Of a stretch of 20,363 bases of DNA, positions 1 to 19,337 are shown piece after piece. The DNA lies in IMG/VR virus record IMGVR_UViG_3300044958_000059, positions 1 to 20,363 of that record. One strand, given 5' to 3'. The stretch comes from a virus. Numbering within the stretch: the stretch's first letter is position 1; each line of letters opens with the position of its first letter. The position numbers and the translations under genes are program-made. Below the pieces are notes generated by a model. The model was given only the letters and a program-made list of their open reading frames with translations, was not told where the DNA came from and ran no database searches.

Positions 1-599
1 GCTTTAATGGCACATTCCGTTATATTCCAACCAACGCTGACGTTGCTGGTCTGATGACTCGCACTGCAGTTGTTGCGTATCCTTGGTTCTCACCTGCTGG
101 TCAGCAGAGAGGAATCATCAATAACGCTGTTAAACTTGTTTATAACCCAAACAAAGCACAAAGAGATCGTCTCTATCAGGCAAGAATCAATCCTGTTGTT
201 TCCAAACCTGGTATCGGAACTCTCCTCTTTGGAGACAAGACTGCTCTTGGATATGCATCCGCATTCGATAGAATTAATGTTCGCCGCTTATTCCTGACAG
301 TCGAGCAAGCACTTGAAAGAGCAGCAGAAGCACAACTCTTTGAACTCAATGATGAGTTGACAAGAGCAAACTTCAAGAACATTGTTGAACCTTATCTCCG
401 TGATGTTCAGGCAAAGAGAGGACTCTACGGATTCCTGGTTGTTTGTGATTCTTCAAACAATACTCCTGATATTATTGACAACAATGAATTTAGAGCAGAC
501 ATCTTCCTGAAGCCAACTAAGTCTATTAACTACGTCACTCTGACGTTTGTTGCAACCAGAACTGGCATCAGTTTTGAAGAAGTTGCTGGTACAGTTTGA
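1..599 (+). CDS. gp18: Contractile tail sheath protein gp18, C-terminal part (5' end outside window)
   Basis: The reading frame is open from base 3 (first codon partial) to TGA at 597-599, giving about 198 C-terminal residues of a protein that is about 660 residues in T4. The visible part has the features of the conserved sheath C-terminal domain: the segment around YNPNKAQRDRLYQARINPVV, then KPGIGTLLFGDKTAL, a NVRRLF motif followed by a helix, and the closing beta strands around FLKPTKSINYVTLTFVATRT. In T4 this domain packs around the gp19 tube and carries the inter-subunit contacts that drive contraction. The immediate downstream gene is the tail tube, the normal T4 order. An ATG at 54 is internal and is not the start. 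Family assignment is confident; the N-terminal domains cannot be judged. Confidence 0.93.
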   Translation, partial: FNGTFRYIPTNADVAGLMTRTAVVAYPWFSPAGQQRGIINNAVKLVYNPNKAQRDRLYQARINPVVSKPGIGTLLFGDKTALGYASAFDRINVRRLFLTVEQALERAAEAQLFELNDELTRANFKNIVEPYLRDVQAKRGLYGFLVVCDSSNNTPDIIDNNEFRADIFLKPTKSINYVTLTFVATRTGISFEEVAGTV

Positions 600-608
600 T
601 ACATTGGC

Positions 609-616
609 AATAAATA
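609..616 (+). promoter_or_regulatory. Late promoter octamer upstream of gp19
   Basis: AATAAATA differs from the T4 late consensus TATAAATA at one base. It lies 20 bases before the gp19 start. By T4 spacing, transcription would start near 622, just before the GGAG ribosome-binding site at 624-627. Inferred from motif and position only. Confidence 0.55.
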
Positions 617-636
617 ACTAAACGGAGAATTAAAAA

Positions 637-1203
637 ATGCCACACTCTATTCAGGATTTCAAATCAACCCTAATTGGGGGCGGCGCACGCCCCAATCTAT
701 TTGAGGTTGTTCTTACTAGTGAGTTCCCAGGTTCGGGAGATTACGATGCAGAGGATTTCTCAATTCTCTGCAAGGCAGCTCAGTTGCCTGCATCTAACAT
801 CGCTTCAATTGATGTTCCCTTCAGAGGTAGAACATTCAAGGTTGCTGGAGACCGCACATTTGATACCTGGACCGTCACGGTCATTAATGACATTAACTTC
901 AGAATTCGTACCTCCATGGAAGCATGGATGCAGTCTATTGGTCAGTATAGCGATGGATCTGGTGCTACCGATCCTGCCGACTACCAAATCGATGCAGTTG
1001 TTAAGCAATTCAGCAGAGCATCTTCAAATCTTTCTGGAGTTGAAGGTAATGGTATGGATGTTATTAAACAGTATAAGTTTTATAGCATCTTCCCAACCAA
1101 CATCTCTGCTATTGATTTGTCTTATGATTCTGCAGACACTATTGAAGAATTCACTATTGAATTCCAAGTTCAATACTGGTCTCCAATGACGGGTGAAAAC
1201 TGA
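637..1203 (+). CDS. gp19: Tail tube protein gp19
   Basis: This 188-residue protein is the subunit of the inner tail tube, which stacks as hexameric rings inside the sheath and conducts DNA. T4 gp19 is 163 residues, so this is slightly longer, as is usual in cyanophages. Visible family features are an N-terminal segment around GGARPNLFEVVL, a central DVPFRGRTFKVAGDRTFDTW block, the NDINFRIRTSMEAWM helix, and the C-terminal strands ending in EFQVQYWS. The ATG at 637 is preceded by GGAG at 624-627 with 9 bases between. Tail tube and gp3 (7133-7702) share this fold: both have a DVPF/DLPG-like strand, a 'D' + aromatic + 'R' strand, and an 'M-WM' helix. It follows gp18 by 37 bases and has its own late octamer. 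Confidence 0.93.
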   Translation: MPHSIQDFKSTLIGGGARPNLFEVVLTSEFPGSGDYDAEDFSILCKAAQLPASNIASIDVPFRGRTFKVAGDRTFDTWTVTVINDINFRIRTSMEAWMQSIGQYSDGSGATDPADYQIDAVVKQFSRASSNLSGVEGNGMDVIKQYKFYSIFPTNISAIDLSYDSADTIEEFTIEFQVQYWSPMTGEN

Positions 1204-1206
1204 TCA

Positions 1207-1214
1207 ACTAAATA
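1207..1214 (+). promoter_or_regulatory. Late promoter octamer upstream of gp20
   Basis: ACTAAATA lies 25 bases upstream of the gp20 start, in the 36-base gap after gp19. The CTAAATA core is repeated in the same position before gp3 (7116-7122), so it looks like a real local variant of the T4 late TATAAATA element. The predicted start is near 1220, leaving a leader of about 20 bases. Confidence 0.5.
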
Positions 1215-1239
1215 ATAGAGATTAGTTCAACTAGTAATA

Positions 1240-2907
1240 ATGTCGTCCAAATTATTTGGGTTCTCAATTGAGGACAACGAACCACAAAGTAAAGGAGTAG
1301 TCTCCCCCGTTCCTCAGAATAACGAGGACGGGGTTGACCACTATCTTACTAGTGGTTTTTTTGGTTCATATGTTGATATTGAAGGTGTATTTAGAACAGA
1401 GTTTGATTTAATCAAACGATATCGTGAGATGTCTTTGCATCCTGAAGCAGATAGTGCCATCGAAGACATTGTAAATGAAGCAGTTGTTTCGGATACTAAC
1501 GATACGCCTGTTGAAATTGAATTGTCAAACCTCAATGCCAGTGACGGTATTAAAGGAAAAATTCGTGAAGAGTTTAAATATATCCTTAGTTTATTGGACT
1601 TTGATAAAAAAGCACACGAAATCTACAGAAATTGGTACATTGACGGAAGACTTTACTATCATAAAGTCATTGATATGAAGAATCCCCAAGAGGGAATTCA
1701 AGAATTACGTTATATTGACGCAATGAAGATGCGTTATGTAAGACAGCAAAAGCAAAAAGCAGAGGATAAACTCCGCCTTGCTAATATTAATACCGATAAT
1801 CCGATGGAATATGAGTTCCCTCAGATTGAAGAGTATTTTGTATATCAACCAAAGGCATCATACCCAACTGGAAGCCCCAGCGCAATGACTGGTGGTAATA
1901 AGGGAATTAAAATGTCAAAAGATTCCATCACCTATTGTACATCCGGTCTTGTAGATAGAAACAAAGGAACGGTTCTTTCATACCTTCACAAAGCAATTAA
2001 ATCACTCAATCAACTCCGTATGATTGAGGATTCACTGGTTATCTATCGTTTAAGTAGGGCACCAGAACGTAGAATTTTCTATATTGACGTTGGCAATCTT
2101 CCAAAAGTCAAGGCAGAGCAATATTTGCGTGACGTTATGACGAGATATCGTAACAAACTTGTATACGATGCATCTACAGGAGAAATTCGTGATGACAAGA
2201 AATACATGTCAATGCTTGAGGATTTTTGGTTACCTAGAAGAGAGGGAGGACGTGGTACTGAAATTACTACTCTTCCAGGAGGACAAAACCTTGGAGAAAT
2301 CACAGACATTGAGTATTTTAAGAAAAAACTTTACAGATCCCTTAACGTGCCACCATCTCGCATGGATGGCGAAGGTGGATTTAATCTCGGTAGGTCCTCA
2401 GAAATCCTCAGAGACGAACTGAAGTTTACTAAGTTTGTTGGACGTTTGAGAAAGAGATTCTCTGGTATGTTTAATGACATGCTAAAGACCCAATTACTTC
2501 TGAAGAACATAATTACTCCAGAAGATTGGGAGATGATGTCGGGGCATATTCAGTATGACTTCTTGTATGACAACCATTTCTCCGAACTTAAGGATTCAGA
2601 ACTTCTCAATGAGAGACTGAATAGTTTGCAGGCTGCTGAACCTTATATTGGTAAGTACTATTCTCAAGATTATGTTCGTCGTCAGATTTTGCGTCAGACT
2701 GATGAAGAAATTATTGAGCAGGATGCACTGATTAAGAAAGAAATTTCAACAGGTGTAATTCCTGACCCCAATGCACCAATCGATCCCGAAACTGGTGTTC
2801 CATTAGATACTGGCGCAAGCACTGATCTTGGCAAACCTCAAGTAGAACCAGATATTGATGGTTCTCCAGCAGAGGCCCCAGAAATTCCTAATGGTGGAGA
2901 AATATAA
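1240..2907 (+). CDS. gp20: Portal vertex protein gp20
   Basis: This 555-residue protein forms the dodecameric portal through which the terminase packages DNA and on which the prohead is initiated (T4 gp20 is 524 residues). The sequence reads as a T4-type portal throughout: an N-terminal YREMSLHPEADSAIEDIVNEA block, the RNWYIDGRLYYHK segment, RAPERRIFYIDVGNLPKVKAEQYL before the crown/wing helices, the stem-tunnel region with LPGGQNLGEITDIEYFKKKLY, and NVPPSRM. The C-terminal approximately 60 residues are rich in Pro, Asp and Glu and are probably flexible. This gene is widely used as a cyanophage diversity marker. No strong ribosome-binding site precedes the ATG at 1240; the start was chosen because the next in-frame Met would cut conserved sequence. 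Confidence 0.95.
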   Translation: MSSKLFGFSIEDNEPQSKGVVSPVPQNNEDGVDHYLTSGFFGSYVDIEGVFRTEFDLIKRYREMSLHPEADSAIEDIVNEAVVSDTNDTPVEIELSNLNASDGIKGKIREEFKYILSLLDFDKKAHEIYRNWYIDGRLYYHKVIDMKNPQEGIQELRYIDAMKMRYVRQQKQKAEDKLRLANINTDNPMEYEFPQIEEYFVYQPKASYPTGSPSAMTGGNKGIKMSKDSITYCTSGLVDRNKGTVLSYLHKAIKSLNQLRMIEDSLVIYRLSRAPERRIFYIDVGNLPKVKAEQYLRDVMTRYRNKLVYDASTGEIRDDKKYMSMLEDFWLPRREGGRGTEITTLPGGQNLGEITDIEYFKKKLYRSLNVPPSRMDGEGGFNLGRSSEILRDELKFTKFVGRLRKRFSGMFNDMLKTQLLLKNIITPEDWEMMSGHIQYDFLYDNHFSELKDSELLNERLNSLQAAEPYIGKYYSQDYVRRQILRQTDEEIIEQDALIKKEISTGVIPDPNAPIDPETGVPLDTGASTDLGKPQVEPDIDGSPAEAPEIPNGGEI

Positions 2908-2910
2908 ATA
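2903..2910 (+). promoter_or_regulatory. Late promoter, exact TATAAATA, upstream of gp67-like gene
   Basis: The octamer is a perfect match to the T4 late promoter and overlaps the gp20 stop codon (TAA 2905-2907). The predicted start is near 2916, giving a leader of about 22 bases before the ATG at 2938. Confidence 0.65.
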
Positions 2911-2937
2911 CCCATAGTTCTATATTAATATAACTAA

Positions 2938-3138
2938 ATGGATGAATTAATTGATGCGATTTCATCGGATGAGTCTCCAGCAGATATTAGCGATAAGATT
3001 AAAGATATCTTATTTGGTAAGTCTGCAGAAAGAATTGATGCTTTTCGTCCCGTAGCATCACAATCTATGTTCGGTGATGAAACTGAACTAGAAGATGAAC
3101 CAGATGAAGAAGAAATTTCTTCAGAAGACGAAGAATAA
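2938..3138 (+). CDS. gp67: Prohead core protein, gp67-like
   Basis: This 66-residue, very acidic protein ends in a run dominated by Glu and Asp (about residues 48-66). T4 gp67 is an 80-residue prohead core protein with the same layout: a short helical N-terminus with an M-(E/D)-x-LI-(E/D)-AI opening, an (A/S)-x-R-ID segment in the middle, and an acidic tail. Here the opening is MDELIDAI and the middle is SAERIDAF. In T4, gp67 is needed for correct core assembly and is cut by gp21 to an internal peptide. The position directly between portal gp20 and the gp21 protease is the T4 position. The name rests on this pattern and synteny rather than strong similarity. Confidence 0.72.
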   Translation: MDELIDAISSDESPADISDKIKDILFGKSAERIDAFRPVASQSMFGDETELEDEPDEEEISSEDEE

Positions 3139-3148
3139 ATAATAAATA
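3134..3148 (+). promoter_or_regulatory. Tandem late promoter octamers upstream of the beta-rich gene
   Basis: Two copies of AATAAATA, at 3134-3141 and 3141-3148, share one base and are offset by 7 bases. The first overlaps the preceding stop codon. The second would start transcription near 3154, with AAGGA at 3166-3170 in the short leader before the ATG at 3173. Confidence 0.5.
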
Positions 3149-3172
3149 ATTACTAAAATGACCTAAAGGATA

Positions 3173-3736
3173 ATGGCTTTTAAACCGGTTGGCATTTGTA
3201 CTGCCATAACAATTAGCACTACTACGGCAACTTCTTCAACATTCACTCAGCAGAGTGCTTATATTAGAGTTGTTGCTTTAACTAAGAGTGCTCACGTTAC
3301 GATTGGTGGTACAAATCCAATCGCGACTCCAGCAAATTTCTTTGTTCATGAAGGTGAACCAGAGACTCTCTCTGTTGGCCGCGTCGATGCCCAACAGGTT
3401 GTTGGTATTGAAACTGGATCAACTACAACTGTCTCGTTCCCAGAGGGGATTATTGGGTCACCTTTTGTTGCAGGTGATTCCATTTCGCTGACTGTAACTG
3501 GTCAGTCCGACTACGACATTTCAAATGCTCTGGTTAAGGGAATCACTCAAACGGTTGTAGAACCATATCAAACTAAAGTTGAATTATTTCATGACTCTTC
3601 TTCAGGCGCTCCAGACCAAACAAGAGATGGTCTTGGAAGTTTTGCAGAACTGAGAAGAACGTTCAGAGTTGCGGCTCTTGGACTTGGTAGCGGAACTCTT
3701 TATGTCCAGCAAGTTCAACAAACAGGAGGAGTATGA
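3173..3736 (+). CDS. Unrecognised beta-rich protein in the head-assembly cluster
   Basis: This is a 187-residue protein that I cannot assign to a T4 gene. It occupies the place of T4 gene 68 (141 residues, core protein) but does not resemble it: it has few charged residues, is rich in Thr, Ser, Val and Gly, and reads as alternating beta strands. The first half has the pattern YIRVVALTKSAHVTIGG, an ATPANFFVHEGEPETLSVG loop, then a VVGIETGSTT turn. This pattern recurs in small virion-associated proteins of marine phages, so a beta-sandwich decoration or spike-like role is an inference. The C-terminal third (FRVAALGLGSGTLYVQQVQQ) is also strand-like. The start has a clear AAGGA 2 bases upstream, and the gene ends overlapping gp21. 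It is surely expressed late with its neighbours. Confidence 0.85.
   Translation: MAFKPVGICTAITISTTTATSSTFTQQSAYIRVVALTKSAHVTIGGTNPIATPANFFVHEGEPETLSVGRVDAQQVVGIETGSTTTVSFPEGIIGSPFVAGDSISLTVTGQSDYDISNALVKGITQTVVEPYQTKVELFHDSSSGAPDQTRDGLGSFAELRRTFRVAALGLGSGTLYVQQVQQTGGV
3724..3729 (+). promoter_or_regulatory. Ribosome-binding site AGGAGG deciding the gp21 start
   Basis: AGGAGG lies inside the end of the preceding gene. It is 3 bases from an ATG at 3733 and 6 bases from an ATG at 3736. The second spacing is normal, so 3736 is preferred as the gp21 start. It is one of the few strong Shine-Dalgarno sequences in the window. Confidence 0.6.
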
Positions 3737-4389
3737 TGAAACTCATTAGAGAAGAAATCGAATCAGTAAAATTCTTGGTTGAAACAACCAAGAGCGGTAA
3801 GAAGTCGTTATATATTGAAGGAGTTTTCCTTCAGGGTAACATCAAAAACCGCAATGGTCGTATGTATCCTATGGAGACTCTCCGCAAGGAAGTTGCTCGG
3901 TATAATGAATCGAATGTTCGATCAGGTAGAGCACTTGGAGAACTTGGACACCCAGATGGTCCTACTGTAAACCTCGACAGAGTTTCTCATAAAATTGTAT
4001 CACTTAGAGAAAGTGGTTCAAACTTCATTGGTAAAGCAAAGATTTTGAATACCCCAATGGGTAAGATTGCTTCTGCTTTAGTAGAAGATGGAGTTAAACT
4101 TGGCGTATCTTCTCGCGGTATTGGTTCATTAAAGCAGACCCGTGAGGGTGTTAATATTGTCGGTGACGACTTCATGTTAGCAACTGCTGCTGATATCGTT
4201 GCTGATCCTTCTGCTCCCGATGCATTTGTTGAGGGAATTATGGAAGGTAAAGAATGGGTATGGGAAGGTGGACTTCTACGTGAAAGGTATGCAGAAGAAA
4301 CTAAAAAAAGAATTAACGCATTAGCAGACCAAAGAGTACTTGAAGAGCATAAATTAGGTCTCTTCAATGACTTCCTCAATAATCTTTGA
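3736..4389 (+). CDS. gp21: Prohead core protease gp21
   Basis: This 217-residue serine protease (T4 gp21, 212 residues) sits in the prohead core and cuts gp22, gp67, gp23 and other proteins after a (L/I)-x-E motif during head maturation. The herpesvirus-assemblin-like catalytic signature is visible: His72 in GELGHPDGP and a Ser at 125/126 in LGVSSRG, followed by a D-x-x-AD-PSAPDA segment at about 153-162. The N-terminal GVFLQGNIKNRNGRMYP block is also typical. The start overlaps the previous stop codon (TGATG), so translation is probably coupled. I preferred ATG 3736 over ATG 3733 because of the ribosome-binding-site spacing. Potential LxE sites are present in gp23 and gp22 downstream. Confidence 0.93.
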   Translation: MKLIREEIESVKFLVETTKSGKKSLYIEGVFLQGNIKNRNGRMYPMETLRKEVARYNESNVRSGRALGELGHPDGPTVNLDRVSHKIVSLRESGSNFIGKAKILNTPMGKIASALVEDGVKLGVSSRGIGSLKQTREGVNIVGDDFMLATAADIVADPSAPDAFVEGIMEGKEWVWEGGLLRERYAEETKKRINALADQRVLEEHKLGLFNDFLNNL

Positions 4390-14099: not shown

Positions 14100-14280
14100 A
14101 CCACAAGCAATGAGGGCCAGGAGAGAAGCACTGCGCCACTTCAAAAAGCGTCATATGGGTCGTCCAAAGGGCGACCTTTTGTTGTATTATGGATTCATAA
14201 GAAAGGAACTCGATGGGAATCAATTTAGAGATCAAGGGGCAACTTGCAAAACTTCTTGCCACCGAAGACCTTATCATTGA
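14044..14280 (+). CDS. Possible small basic protein overlapping its neighbours, uncertain
   Basis: A 78-codon ORF whose first 45 residues are strikingly basic, rich in Lys, Arg, His and Gln (KKQQKRKLKPQAMRARREAL then RHFKKRHMGRPKGD). That composition suggests nucleic-acid binding if it is real. It overlaps the 51-residue ORF at its 5' end and the first 68 bases of the VWA gene at its 3' end, each in a different frame. The terminator-like hairpin at 14157-14185 lies inside it. Its C-terminal part after about residue 60 looks like out-of-frame VWA-gene sequence. An internal ATG at 14110 would avoid the 5' overlap. No ribosome-binding site is evident at 14044. Confidence 0.35.
   Translation: MNTPNWQHHSKKQQKRKLKPQAMRARREALRHFKKRHMGRPKGDLLLYYGFIRKELDGNQFRDQGATCKTSCHRRPYH
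14157..14185 (+). terminator. Terminator-like hairpin before the VWA gene
   Basis: GGTCGTCC (14158-14165) pairs with GGGCGACC (14169-14176) with one wobble and an AAA loop, followed by TTTTGTTGT. This has the shape of an intrinsic terminator closing the gp55-47-46 transcript. The possible basic ORF reads through it, so the two interpretations compete. Confidence 0.6.
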
Positions 14281-16312
14281 AAACAAAGAAGTTCACACTG
14301 CTTCCTTCAATGTAGATTCCCGTGTGCTGACCCTCCCTATCTGGGACAAGGCAGATAACAACGTGTACGACCTGCTGGTAGCACATGAAGTTGGTCATGC
14401 ACTCTTCACTCCTAATGAAGATCCCCCTGACGATATCCCCCATCAGTATTTGAACGTCACCGAGGATGCACGTATTGAGAAACTGATGAAGCGCAAGTTT
14501 ATGGGACTTGCTAAGACTTTCTATCGTGGTTATACTAAGTTCCATAATGACGACTTCTTTGAACTGGAGAATGAAGATATTAATTCTATGAGTCTTGCTG
14601 ATCGTGTGAACCTTTACTTTAAGATCGGTTCACTCAATCCCGTCTCTTTCACTACTGAGGAGCAAGTGGTTGTTGACATGGTTGCCAATGCAGAGACTTT
14701 CCTGGATGCACAGGAAGCAGCACGGGCAATGTATCAACTCCAAAAGCAACAGAAACAGGAGAAGATTGCTAATGTTCAGACTTCTAAACATGGACAAGGT
14801 GGTGGCACTGAGTCTTCTTCTATGGAGTCCTCTACGGAGCAAGAGAATCAATCAGAAGAACTGTCTAGAGAAGAAGGTGGTTCTATGGGTGGGAGTCGCC
14901 CTGAGACTGTTCTGGAGTTCCCTACTGAAGGTGATGAAGTATGGCAAGATGAAGAAGTCAAGACCGACTCCAGCCTCTCTGGAAATCTTGAAAATCTGAT
15001 CTCTTCTGATGCCATGGCGAATGAATATGTTGAGATCCCTGATGTTAATCTGAAGACTATTATCAATTCTAATAAAGAGGTCTCTGCATATATTAATGAT
15101 TTCTTTAGTCAGTTCTCTTCTGAAATTTATATTCTCTCTGATGAGTCCTACAACAAATTCAAAAAATCCGCACAGAAAGAAGTCAACTACCTCGTCAAGG
15201 AGTTCGAGTGTAGAAAGTCTGCTAGTTCTTATCATCGTGCTACTACATCTAGGACTGGAGTCCTTGATTGTACTAAACTCCACACTTACAAATATAATGA
15301 AGATCTGTTCAAAAAGATCAGTGTGATTCCTGATGGTAAGAATCATGGTCTGATATTTGTTTTGGACTGGTCTGGTTCTATGACCGATGTGATTGAAGAT
15401 ACCCTGAAGCAACTCTATAATCTTGTTTGGTTCTGTAAGAAAGTTGCTATTCCTTTCAAGGTGTTTGTATTCACTAATGAATATAATCATGCATATGATG
15501 ATGACGGCCACATCGCTGATGCTCCTGAGCACTACATTGCTAAAGAAGGTCAACTTTTTGTTGATCGTCGGTTCTCTATGATGGAGTTCTTCAATAACGA
15601 AACCACTGCTCAAGAACTTGATATTCAGATGCGAAATATCTGGAGGATCTCTTACTCTGCTACCCACTACTGTTGGTCTGGAACTTACATGACACCCCCC
15701 AGGATTGGATTCTCTGGAACTCCTTTGAATGAGTCTGTTGTTGCTCTCCATAAAATCATTCCCGATTTCAAGAAAAAGAATAATCTTGAGAAAGTTAATT
15801 GTGTGATCCTGACTGACGGTGAGGCAAATCATCTTGCCCGTCATAAGATGGTTGAGCGTAGGGACTGTCACATTATGGGTAAGATTCGTCTGAATGATCG
15901 CTGTTATCTGCGCGACCGTAAGACTGGCCAGACTTACAGGATTCCTTATGCCTGGTATGACTTTCACAATATGTTGGTTGAGAACCTTTGTCATCGATTC
16001 CCTGAAGTCAACGTGATCGGTATTCGTGTGGTTGAGAGTCGTGATGTGAACAGTTGGATGCGTCGGGGTATCAGTCTGAATGAGTTCTTGAAACTTCAGA
16101 AGGTGTGGAAGAAAGAACGTGCCGTGGTCGTAAATGTACGTGGTTATACAAAATACTTTGGATTATCTTCTTCTTCTCTATCAAGTGATAGTGACTTTGA
16201 AGTTGACGAAGGAGCAACCAAAGCAAAAATCAAGAGTGCATTTATGAAGTCTCTGAAGACCAAAAAACTAAATAAGAAAGTCTTAGGCGAATTCGTGGAG
16301 TTGATCGCATGA
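14213..16312 (+). CDS. Metallopeptidase-VWA domain fusion protein (CobT-like architecture)
   Basis: This is a 699-residue protein in two parts. The N-terminal part (1-170) has a zinc-peptidase motif HEVGH (58-62) and a downstream NVTEDARIEK segment (81-90), in which Glu84 or Glu88 could be the third ligand; this layout resembles the putative-metallopeptidase domain found before VWA domains (DUF2201 type). A low-complexity linker (about 175-265) is rich in Gln, Ser, Glu and Gly. The C-terminal part has a VWA fold with a complete MIDAS: D385-x-S387-x-S389 in LDWSGSM, Thr503 in SGTPL, and Asp535 in LTDGEAN. Cobaltochelatase CobT and many MoxR partners have such a VWA domain. AAGGA at 14203-14207, 5 bases upstream, supports the ATG at 14213. 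The CobS/MoxR-type ATPase lies 210 bases downstream, so the pair probably works together. Cyanophage genomes usually call it a peptidase; the true substrate is unknown. Confidence 0.9.
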   Translation: MGINLEIKGQLAKLLATEDLIIENKEVHTASFNVDSRVLTLPIWDKADNNVYDLLVAHEVGHALFTPNEDPPDDIPHQYLNVTEDARIEKLMKRKFMGLAKTFYRGYTKFHNDDFFELENEDINSMSLADRVNLYFKIGSLNPVSFTTEEQVVVDMVANAETFLDAQEAARAMYQLQKQQKQEKIANVQTSKHGQGGGTESSSMESSTEQENQSEELSREEGGSMGGSRPETVLEFPTEGDEVWQDEEVKTDSSLSGNLENLISSDAMANEYVEIPDVNLKTIINSNKEVSAYINDFFSQFSSEIYILSDESYNKFKKSAQKEVNYLVKEFECRKSASSYHRATTSRTGVLDCTKLHTYKYNEDLFKKISVIPDGKNHGLIFVLDWSGSMTDVIEDTLKQLYNLVWFCKKVAIPFKVFVFTNEYNHAYDDDGHIADAPEHYIAKEGQLFVDRRFSMMEFFNNETTAQELDIQMRNIWRISYSATHYCWSGTYMTPPRIGFSGTPLNESVVALHKIIPDFKKKNNLEKVNCVILTDGEANHLARHKMVERRDCHIMGKIRLNDRCYLRDRKTGQTYRIPYAWYDFHNMLVENLCHRFPEVNVIGIRVVESRDVNSWMRRGISLNEFLKLQKVWKKERAVVVNVRGYTKYFGLSSSSLSSDSDFEVDEGATKAKIKSAFMKSLKTKKLNKKVLGEFVELIA

Positions 16313-16461
16313 CTCAATATAGGGACAATTGGAAGGAGATCGCCAAGGCATCGGAAAGAGATCCCAAAGCATTGGACATTCTTGAGAATGGTGCAAAATC
16401 TTTAACACAAGCATATTTCCTACAAGCAATGCGATACAAATATGGCCGATCTAACAACTGA
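16309..16461 (+). CDS. Small protein of 50 residues between the VWA and AAA+ genes, unknown
   Basis: This ORF overlaps the VWA-gene stop codon by ATGA, so translation is probably coupled. It encodes MTQYRDNWKEIAKASERDPK, then ALDILENGAKSLTQAYFLQA and a short basic end. It is predicted to be mostly helical with a net balanced charge, and no family is recognised. Its place between the two partners of a likely MoxR-VWA pair makes an adaptor role possible, but only position supports this. Without it, the 210 bases between the two genes would be empty, which is unusual in this genome. Confidence 0.68.
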   Translation: MTQYRDNWKEIAKASERDPKALDILENGAKSLTQAYFLQAMRYKYGRSNN

Positions 16462-16494
16462 CCACTCTTCCCCTGTCTCTGCTCCACTCTGCCC

Positions 16495-16500
16495 TATAAT
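16495..16500 (+). promoter_or_regulatory. Possible promoter -10 box upstream of cobS
   Basis: A perfect TATAAT lies 22 bases before the chosen cobS ATG. No good -35 box is seen at 16-18 bases spacing (CCTGTC at best). The likely start near 16507 would give a 16-base leader. An activator-dependent promoter would fit a lone -10, but this is weak evidence. Confidence 0.4.
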
Positions 16501-16522
16501 AACTTCAGTTCAAACAAACCAA

Positions 16523-17635
16523 ATGTCCCTCTCACCTGAGTTTATTCGCACTTCCCTTCAGGGATTGTATGGTGAGTCTGTTTCTGCTGCTGATATTCGT
16601 GCCTGGTGTGCTATGAATGGTGCGAACTATCAAACTGTCACCAACAAACTTACTGATTACAAAACTGGTCGTGGAAAGTGGAACCTAGAAGTAATAGATG
16701 AGACAGTACAAGAACTAGAAGTAACTTACAATGCACCTGCGGCAATGCCTGCTGTTGAACAAAACCTTATTCCTGCAAAAGATGATACCTTCGTCAGCTT
16801 TGGTAACTTCTCTGATATTAAAAAGATTATTAAGTCCCATGTATTTTATCCAACATTTATCACTGGACTTTCTGGTAATGGTAAAACGTTCAGTGTTGAG
16901 CAAGCGTGTGCTCAACTCGGACGTGAACTCATCCGTGTAAACATCACTATCGAGACCGATGAAGATGATCTTATTGGCGGTTTCCGTTTGGTTGACGGTA
17001 ATACTGTGTGGCACAATGGCCCTGTTATTGAATCTCTTGAGCGTGGAGCTGTTCTCCTTCTGGATGAAATCGATCTGGCGTCCAACAAAATTCTTTGCCT
17101 TCAGTCAGTTCTTGAAGGAAAGGGTGTTTTCCTCAAGAAGATTGGTAAATTTATTATGCCAACAAAAGGTTTCCAAGTATTCGCAACCGCCAACACCAAA
17201 GGTAAAGGTTCTGACGATGGACGATTCATTGGAACTAACGTGCTTAACGAAGCATTCCTTGAGCGATTCCCAGTGACCTTTGAGCAGGAGTATCCGACTG
17301 CTAAGACTGAAGAGAAGATCCTTACAGGTATCTGTAGCGATACTGACTTCTGCAAGCGTCTGGCAGACTGGGCAGACATTATCCGCAAGACCTTCTATGA
17401 TGGTGGTATTGATGAGATTATCTCCACCCGCCGACTGGTTCATATTGTTCGTGCATACAGTATTTTCAATGATAAAGCAAAGGCCATTCAGGTCTGTGTG
17501 AATCGTTTTGATGATGAAACTAAGCAAGCATTCCTGGAACTGTATGATAAGGTTGATGCTGACTTCAATCTTCCTACACTTGATGTGGAAGCAATGAAAG
17601 AGTTTTCTCCCATTGACCAATCAGAGAATCTCTGA
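16523..17635 (+). CDS. cobS: CobS/MoxR-type AAA+ ATPase
   Basis: This 370-residue protein is the gene usually called cobS in cyanomyoviruses, after the ATPase subunit of aerobic cobaltochelatase, which inserts cobalt in cobalamin synthesis. The AAA+ core is clear: Walker A GLSGNGKT (115-122), Walker B LLLDEID (178-184), sensor-1 Asn224 in FATAN, and an arginine-finger region LERFP with Arg248. CobS and MoxR share the insertion seen between Walker A and B (DEDDLIGGFRLVDGNTVWHNGP). The first 80 residues form a separate helical domain with no counterpart I can name. The frame is open back to 16442, but the exact TATAAT at 16495 and family-like MSLSPEF start favour 16523. No large-subunit CobN is present, so a chelatase role here is uncertain. 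The adjacent VWA protein is its likely partner. Confidence 0.9.
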   Translation: MSLSPEFIRTSLQGLYGESVSAADIRAWCAMNGANYQTVTNKLTDYKTGRGKWNLEVIDETVQELEVTYNAPAAMPAVEQNLIPAKDDTFVSFGNFSDIKKIIKSHVFYPTFITGLSGNGKTFSVEQACAQLGRELIRVNITIETDEDDLIGGFRLVDGNTVWHNGPVIESLERGAVLLLDEIDLASNKILCLQSVLEGKGVFLKKIGKFIMPTKGFQVFATANTKGKGSDDGRFIGTNVLNEAFLERFPVTFEQEYPTAKTEEKILTGICSDTDFCKRLADWADIIRKTFYDGGIDEIISTRRLVHIVRAYSIFNDKAKAIQVCVNRFDDETKQAFLELYDKVDADFNLPTLDVEAMKEFSPIDQSENL

Positions 17636-18847: not shown

Positions 18848-19005
18848 TGACTAAGTGGGAAGTAACATACAAACTCCCTTCTACGGGAGCAAAGTATTAC
18901 TATAAGATTGTTGAGGCACGCTATCAGCATGATGCCAAAAAAATTGCACAAGCAGAAATGCCTGATGCAATTCTTTGCGGAGGACCGAGGCAACTCTATA
19001 AATGA
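18847..19005 (+). CDS. Small protein of 52 residues between gp45 and speD, unknown
   Basis: This ORF starts on the last base of the gp45 stop and ends in an ATGA overlap with speD, so it is translationally coupled on both sides. It encodes a strand-helix-strand-like protein: MTKWEVTYKLPSTGAKYYYK, a helix VEARYQHDAKKIAQAE, then PDAILCGGPRQLYK. It is basic and has no membrane segment or known motif. The DAKKIAQ-A-x-x-P-x-A-x-I-L-x-G-x-P pattern looks like that of other small cyanophage proteins. Function is unknown. Confidence 0.7.
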   Translation: MTKWEVTYKLPSTGAKYYYKIVEARYQHDAKKIAQAEMPDAILCGGPRQLYK

Positions 19006-19337
19006 AACACATTCTCTTTACCTTGAAAGGTTGCCCTTTTGATTTGCTTGATGATGAAGAGTTCATAAGAATGGTTTTGTTTAAAGCATCAAAAGAATGT
19101 AATTCAACATTGCTTGATTTAACAGTGCATAAATTTGAACCACAAGGTGTGACTGGAATTGCTATGCTTGCTGAGAGTCATCTCAGTATCCATACTTGGC
19201 CTGAGAATGGTATGGCAGTTTGTGATGTTTTTACCTGTGGAGATAGTACAGAACCAGAAAAGGCAGTGGAGTATATGCAAGAGCAATTAAAGGCAACTGA
19301 TATTGTATCTGAAATCTTTACTCGACCTTTGAAATGA
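19002..19337 (+). CDS. speD: S-adenosylmethionine decarboxylase proenzyme SpeD
   Basis: This 111-residue pyruvoyl-dependent enzyme makes decarboxylated S-adenosylmethionine, the aminopropyl donor for spermidine. The prokaryotic family hallmarks are complete: the self-cleavage site E58-S59 in AESHLSIHTWPE, with Ser59 becoming the pyruvoyl group of the alpha chain, plus catalytic His64 and Cys79 in VFTCG (equivalent to Ser63, His68 and Cys83 of the Thermotoga enzyme). At 111 residues it lacks part of the C-terminal tail seen in longer bacterial forms but keeps the active core. speD is a known host-derived metabolic gene of cyanomyoviruses and probably adjusts polyamines, which neutralise DNA charge. 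It overlaps both neighbours by ATGA, so it is fully embedded in the gp45 operon. Confidence 0.95.
   Translation: MKHILFTLKGCPFDLLDDEEFIRMVLFKASKECNSTLLDLTVHKFEPQGVTGIAMLAESHLSIHTWPENGMAVCDVFTCGDSTEPEKAVEYMQEQLKATDIVSEIFTRPLK

Follow-up and report, generated by a model that had tools for sequence, protein, structure and literature searches.

The virus record IMGVR_UViG_3300044958_000059, a stretch of 20,363 bases analyzed over its full length (hereafter the window), is a 20.4-kb fragment of a T4-like cyanomyovirus, and Synechococcus phage Bellamy is its closest annotated relative. Between gp46 and gp45 it encodes a protein that joins an N-terminal HExxH motif to a VWA domain, and downstream of it an AAA+ ATPase of the CobS/MoxR class. 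This pair is already known as a core feature of T4-like cyanophages and is usually labeled a vitamin-B12 enzyme. The analysis presented here instead favors an AAA+/VWA-driven zinc-metallopeptidase that would remodel or cleave a protein in the replicative phase of infection, a reading to which we assign a probability of about 0.45. The genes of the locus are:

14213..16312, plus strand: predicted metallopeptidase-VWA protein of 699 amino acids with a CobT-like architecture, matching phrog_459 ("peptidase") with 834 bits
16309..16461, plus strand: open reading frame of 50 amino acids, an optional small component, matching phrog_869
16442..17635, plus strand: AAA+ ATPase of the CobS/MoxR class, 397 amino acids, matching phrog_249 ("porphyrin biosynthesis") with 455 bits, AAA_5 with 57 bits against a cut-off of 22, and PD_CobS with 63 bits

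All three open reading frames lie at the coordinates given by the original prediction, which had been drawn from the letters of the window alone. The profile matches of the two larger proteins, with gp46 upstream and gp45 downstream, place them in the phrog_459/phrog_249 core pair. The 50-residue frame that had been noted between them is a real coding sequence, as indicated by its phrog_869 match and by homologues situated between the pair genes in at least 26 of 77 loci. The conserved proteins of this family have 45-50 residues (NWKEIA...ILENGPKSLSQAWLLQAMKYKYG at 16309-16461) and often occur between the two genes. Since the AAA+ frame overlaps this small gene, its start codon is uncertain.

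Conserved residues of the VWA protein and its AAA+ partner

The 699-residue protein falls below the cut-offs of all the curated Pfam VWA, CobT and peptidase models. Its conserved motifs and residues are as follows:

14384..14398, plus strand: HEVGH, residues 58-62, with H, E and H invariant in 67 sequences, on predicted helix 49-65
14453..14479, plus strand: NVTEDARIE, residues 81-89, with N81, E84, D85, R87 and E89 invariant, on predicted helix 77-95
15365..15382, plus strand: MIDAS motif DWSGSM, residues 385-390, with D385, S387 and S389 invariant
15719-15721, plus strand: MIDAS residue T503, invariant
15815-15817, plus strand: MIDAS residue D535, invariant

In an alignment of 67 diverse homologues H58, E59, H62, N81, E84, D85, R87 and E89 are invariant, as are all five MIDAS residues, indicating that the motif is far beyond chance. 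The earlier description of a protein with HEVGH, EDARIE and a complete MIDAS is thus borne out, and at the level of the motif the invariant HExxH and NxxED make a zinc-peptidase plausible. The candidate for a third zinc ligand is E84. In the AlphaFold2 model of the protein (pLDDT 78.7) HEVGH is placed on one helix and E84 on the following one, the arrangement expected of a zincin with such a ligand, as far as helix positions go. The HExxH motif is retained in phages whose overall similarity is only about 15-30%, its holders including Ochrobactrum phage OC, Pelagibacter phage Mosig, Vibrio phage ICP2 and an Escherichia coli phage-plasmid. Its conservation in one set of loci is partly circular, as the search pattern itself contained "HE", but patterns lacking these letters agree and recovered relatives at 26-30% identity that also possess it. 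A short VWA protein of 462 amino acids devoid of the N-terminal peptidase motif is encoded near a MoxR ATPase on the Methylobacterium plasmid pAMS5a (L131:2104-3492).

The C-terminal region combines the DxSxS, T and D residues of a MIDAS with a VWA fold. Its best structural matches are domains that partner AAA+ rings, namely the MIDAS domain of MDN1 (Z 15.8, root-mean-square deviation 3.7, 217 residues aligned) and the VWA domain of NorD (Z 15.3, root-mean-square deviation 3.6, 235 residues aligned). The neighboring gene, previously assigned to the CobS/MoxR class of AAA+ proteins, is confirmed as such by its AAA_5 match and by both nucleotide-binding motifs:

16865..16888, plus strand: Walker A GLSGNGKT, residues 142-149, found in 72 of 73 homologues, with GMSGNGKT in the remaining one
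17054..17074, plus strand: Walker B LLLDEID, residues 205-211, LLLDE[IVL]D in 73 of 73 homologues

Its sequence matches comprise midasin, CobS (71-72 bits to the solved CobS) and NorQ; the predicted model is middling (pLDDT 71, pTM 0.44), and none of the conclusions draws on it.

These conserved sites bear on the alternative that the pair is an AAA+/VWA chaperone alone, in which the HExxH domain would serve as a non-proteolytic metal site, either structural or regulatory. Adaptor function is known for the VWA partners of other MoxR ATPases, and the motif is dispensable for the function or persistence of genuine CobT and certain Acinetobacter phage-plasmid proteins, which would be consistent with such a role. 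However, the catalytic glutamate E59 and the NxxED signature are invariant alongside both histidines in the 67 sequences, and E59 would be superfluous in a metal site of structural role only. As HExxH also persists in distant homologues, we regard a pure chaperone as improbable.

Relation to CobS, CobT and CobN

It has been proposed that the pair supplies the CobS and CobT subunits of a mosaic cobaltochelatase, which would borrow and drive the CobN of the host and thereby raise the production of (pseudo)cobalamin (PMC8651126). The resemblance of the AAA+ protein to the solved CobS is in keeping with this proposal, but its score of 63.2 bits falls ninefold short of the CobS (TIGR01650) cut-off of 558.55 bits. 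In the phylogenetic tree, which has some long-branched rows, the cyanophage AAA+ proteins form a clade (99/98) apart from that of genuine CobS (100/99). A separate study placed the MoxR protein of phage S-CREM1 in the CGN subfamily, apart from the MoxR of the host (PMC9964418).

The relationship of the VWA protein to CobT is likewise distant. The window protein has no above-cut-off match to the CobT models PF06213 and PF11775, and seven of its 67 relatives match PF06213 weakly (best E 0.037). The solved CobT chains are not among the PDB fold matches listed, which is uninformative given that the VWA domain filled the list. Profile comparisons link the cyanophage N-domain to that of the phage-plasmid proteins (96%) and the latter to CobT (55%). 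The direct comparison between the cyanophage and CobT N-domains is weak (probability 4-8%); the connection, which counts in favor of the CobST proposal, runs through the phage-plasmid proteins. One of these, from E. coli, matches the Pfam CobT N-domain (E 7.6e-28) and the CobT VWA domain (2e-81) and still has HEVAH; a Pseudovibrio protein similarly matches the CobT N-domain (1.6e-7) and still has HEAGH. In genuine CobT proteins, the solved one among them, there is no HExxH, and the protease residues that the phages keep invariant are missing. The simplest reading of these sequences would be that the CobT N-domain is a related domain whose active site has been lost.

The third subunit was sought both in phages and in hosts. 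A CobN-family gene was found neither in the window, itself only a 20.4-kb fragment, nor in seven complete phage records, among them the pair-bearing E. coli and Vibrio phages, nor in E. coli, the host of one pair-bearing phage-plasmid. The statement in the original prediction that no CobN is seen is therefore confirmed within this fragment. A control cyanobacterium possesses a CobN/ChlH-family gene, with no CobT found in it, which would leave a gap for a phage to fill and makes a CobN-dependent role possible there. The six phages tested, of which five bear the pair, all have the small subunit of the B12-independent class I ribonucleotide reductase, and a search of seven phages revealed no B12-binding domain. 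With no sign of a cobalamin role, the earlier view that cobaltochelatase activity is not obvious is supported, and a viral CobST appears doubtful.

Gene linkage, neighborhood and transcription signals

The two genes are either jointly present or jointly absent. Each protein matches 365 Synechococcus, 61 Cyanophage and 24 Prochlorococcus records, as judged from the totals per group. The major capsid protein matches 379 Synechococcus records, and hence some of these, including at least one short fragment, are without the pair. Both genes are found in S-CRM01 and neither in S-B68, a cyanophage of cluster C, which has been reported to be devoid of cobS. Among viral contigs the pair was recovered in 80 loci, with the genes 61-4027 nucleotides apart (one overlapping), and in all 21 VWA loci with no detected AAA+ gene the contig broke off less than 2 kb further downstream. 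Independent loss of either gene, by which the original prediction could have been overturned, was thus not encountered, and the idea of a functional pair stands unrefuted. Beyond cyanophages the pair is also borne by E. coli and Vibrio phages. A single genome scan for cellular relatives recovered mostly metagenome-assembled contigs that are probably viral, along with a single-cell contig of Prochlorococcus and one distant element from Pseudovibrio.

In four lineages the pair is located among replication and recombination genes. Of the cyanophage loci, 73 have gp46 on the upstream side and 66 have gp45 on the downstream side, while 33 of 36 phage-plasmid loci have dnaE after the pair. The primase, helicase and polymerase genes of ICP2 likewise come after the pair, and in the element of Pseudovibrio sp. 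Ad37 (L193:1533-7656) the AAA+ and HExxH-VWA genes flank those for RecT, a YqaJ exonuclease and DUF3150. Two signals precede the pair in the window:

14157..14177, plus strand: terminator-like hairpin GGGTCGTCC-AAA-GGGCGACCT with a T-rich tail, separating the gp46 operon from the pair
14185..14190, plus strand: -10-like TATTAT, a putative promoter element of the pair, 28 nucleotides before the start codon

Of 86 loci, 77 have such a hairpin ahead of the VWA gene, as opposed to 11 of 430 shuffled sequences, and it precedes the control genes gp45 and gp46 in only 6 of 56 and 2 of 57 cases, respectively. The -10-like TAT[AGT]AT occurs there in 71 of the 86 loci against 8.5% of shuffles. In most cyanophage loci the hairpin and the TATNAT directly behind it (14157-14190 in the window) maintain a near-constant spacing to the VWA start codon, while the stem sequences differ. 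The late motif ATAAATA was found upstream of the VWA gene in only one of the 86 loci and is missing there in the window, where it does precede gp19, gp67, gp68 and gp22. The combination of a hairpin, a -10-like element and a missing late motif argues for the pair being a separate, non-late transcription unit.

These observations bear on the proposal, made for jumbo phages and for the pair of the Acidianus two-tailed virus, that such systems are virion assembly and processing machines which remodel and cleave structural proteins (PMC7824862). The domain architecture is the same as that described there, and the genome block upstream of the pair in the window, from gp19 to gp23, is structural. 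Against this, the pair itself is flanked by gp46 and gp45 and, in other lineages, has replication or recombination genes as neighbors, it is without the late motif that marks the structural genes of the same window, and the cluster C phage S-B68 manages without it. Accordingly, we view a virion role as unlikely, and the virion complex that the original prediction had offered as a possible target is made less likely by the location in a replication module and the non-late promoter.

Among other genes of the window, a probable S-adenosylmethionine decarboxylase is encoded at 19002-19337, between gp45 and gp44, and the annotation of Bellamy has the same order.

Proposed function and comparison with known systems

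Taken together, the pair is best viewed as a putative zinc-metallopeptidase system of the replicative phase. The AAA+ ring would be the motor, on which the VWA/MIDAS domain of the partner might dock to form a complex and hold the substrate, by analogy with NorD-NorQ and with the MIDAS-ring interaction of midasin. The N-terminal HExxH...NxxEDxRIE domain would then bind zinc and cleave or trim this substrate. The system would probably act inside the cell in the early or middle phase of infection, targeting a component of the replication/recombination machinery or a host protein associated with it; it would be neither a cobalt chelatase nor chiefly a late factor of virion assembly. The linkage of the genes, the conserved residues, the modeled helices, the class of the VWA fold, the neighboring genes and the sequence type of the promoter are observed, while the complex, zinc binding, proteolysis, timing and target are inferred. 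Of the AAA+/VWA remodeling machine originally envisaged, the linked pair and the plausible zinc-peptidase are retained. Its implied novelty is not, as published proposals already exist (PMC8651126, PMC7824862).

Several observations weigh against the favored reading. Gene neighborhood and promoter class are indirect indicators of function. The correlation between the VWA and AAA+ trees is not specific, with a partial r of 0.50 given gp46 as background and r values of 0.39 and 0.46 with gp46 itself. The Acinetobacter phage-plasmids (homologues at L110:3984-5906 and L128:2388-4310) have QEVAK in place of HExxH, a natural loss of the site, and still keep the pair, implying that proteolysis is not always needed. 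Further, the Pfam DUF2201 metallopeptidase model matches two of the 67 family members, below the cut-off (best E 0.0033), and the PDB fold search covered residues 315-699, with the VWA domain filling the match list, which leaves a zincin fold of the N-domain putative.

A broader scenario, which goes beyond the favored reading and appears rather unlikely, is that such pairs are ATP-driven zinc proteases clearing or processing proteins at sites of viral replication or recombination, spread over unrelated phages, phage-plasmids and mobile elements, and that CobT descended from such a protein after loss of the catalytic residues. If true, the cyanophage "cobS" would be misnamed. This gene is counted among the core auxiliary metabolic genes of cyanophages, and environmental studies take it to indicate that viruses influence B12. 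Should the pair be a remodeling protease, the B12 reading would be wrong and a large phage gene family would gain a new function open to testing. A single-residue test is made possible by the invariant active site, and the apparent relationship to CobT bears on the evolution of a metal chelatase subunit. Thus, although novelty is low, the old puzzle of "cobS" becomes testable.

Among known systems, genes 146/148 of Bellamy and gp150/gp153 of Syn9 belong to the same families, with the same order and location between gp46 and gp45. Bellamy differs only in sequence divergence, the VWA proteins being 51% and the AAA+ proteins 82% identical. In group 2.2 jumbo phages, as described by Iyer et al. 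(PMC7824862), a MoxR AAA+ gene likewise adjoins the gene for a vWA protein that carries a fused metallopeptidase at its N terminus. The likeness is drawn from that described architecture and, for the phage protein studied here, from its motif; the virion role proposed there is not favored by the present context. CobS/CobT share the class of AAA+ protein, the layout of an N-domain followed by a VWA/MIDAS domain, and the weak N-domain link through phage-plasmid proteins. They differ in that the phage proteins keep HExxH and NxxED, form a separate AAA+ clade, remain below all the family cut-offs and occur in phages in which no CobN was found. NorQ/NorD and midasin (Rea1/MDN1) offer the structurally closest VWA and MIDAS domains; their substrates are NO reductase and a ribosome precursor, respectively, and we know of no N-terminal HExxH domain described for either. 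Finally, DUF2201, the "putative metallopeptidase domain" of Pfam, is also an HExxH domain, albeit with a match below significance, and the proteins containing it also bear a C-terminal VWA-like domain.

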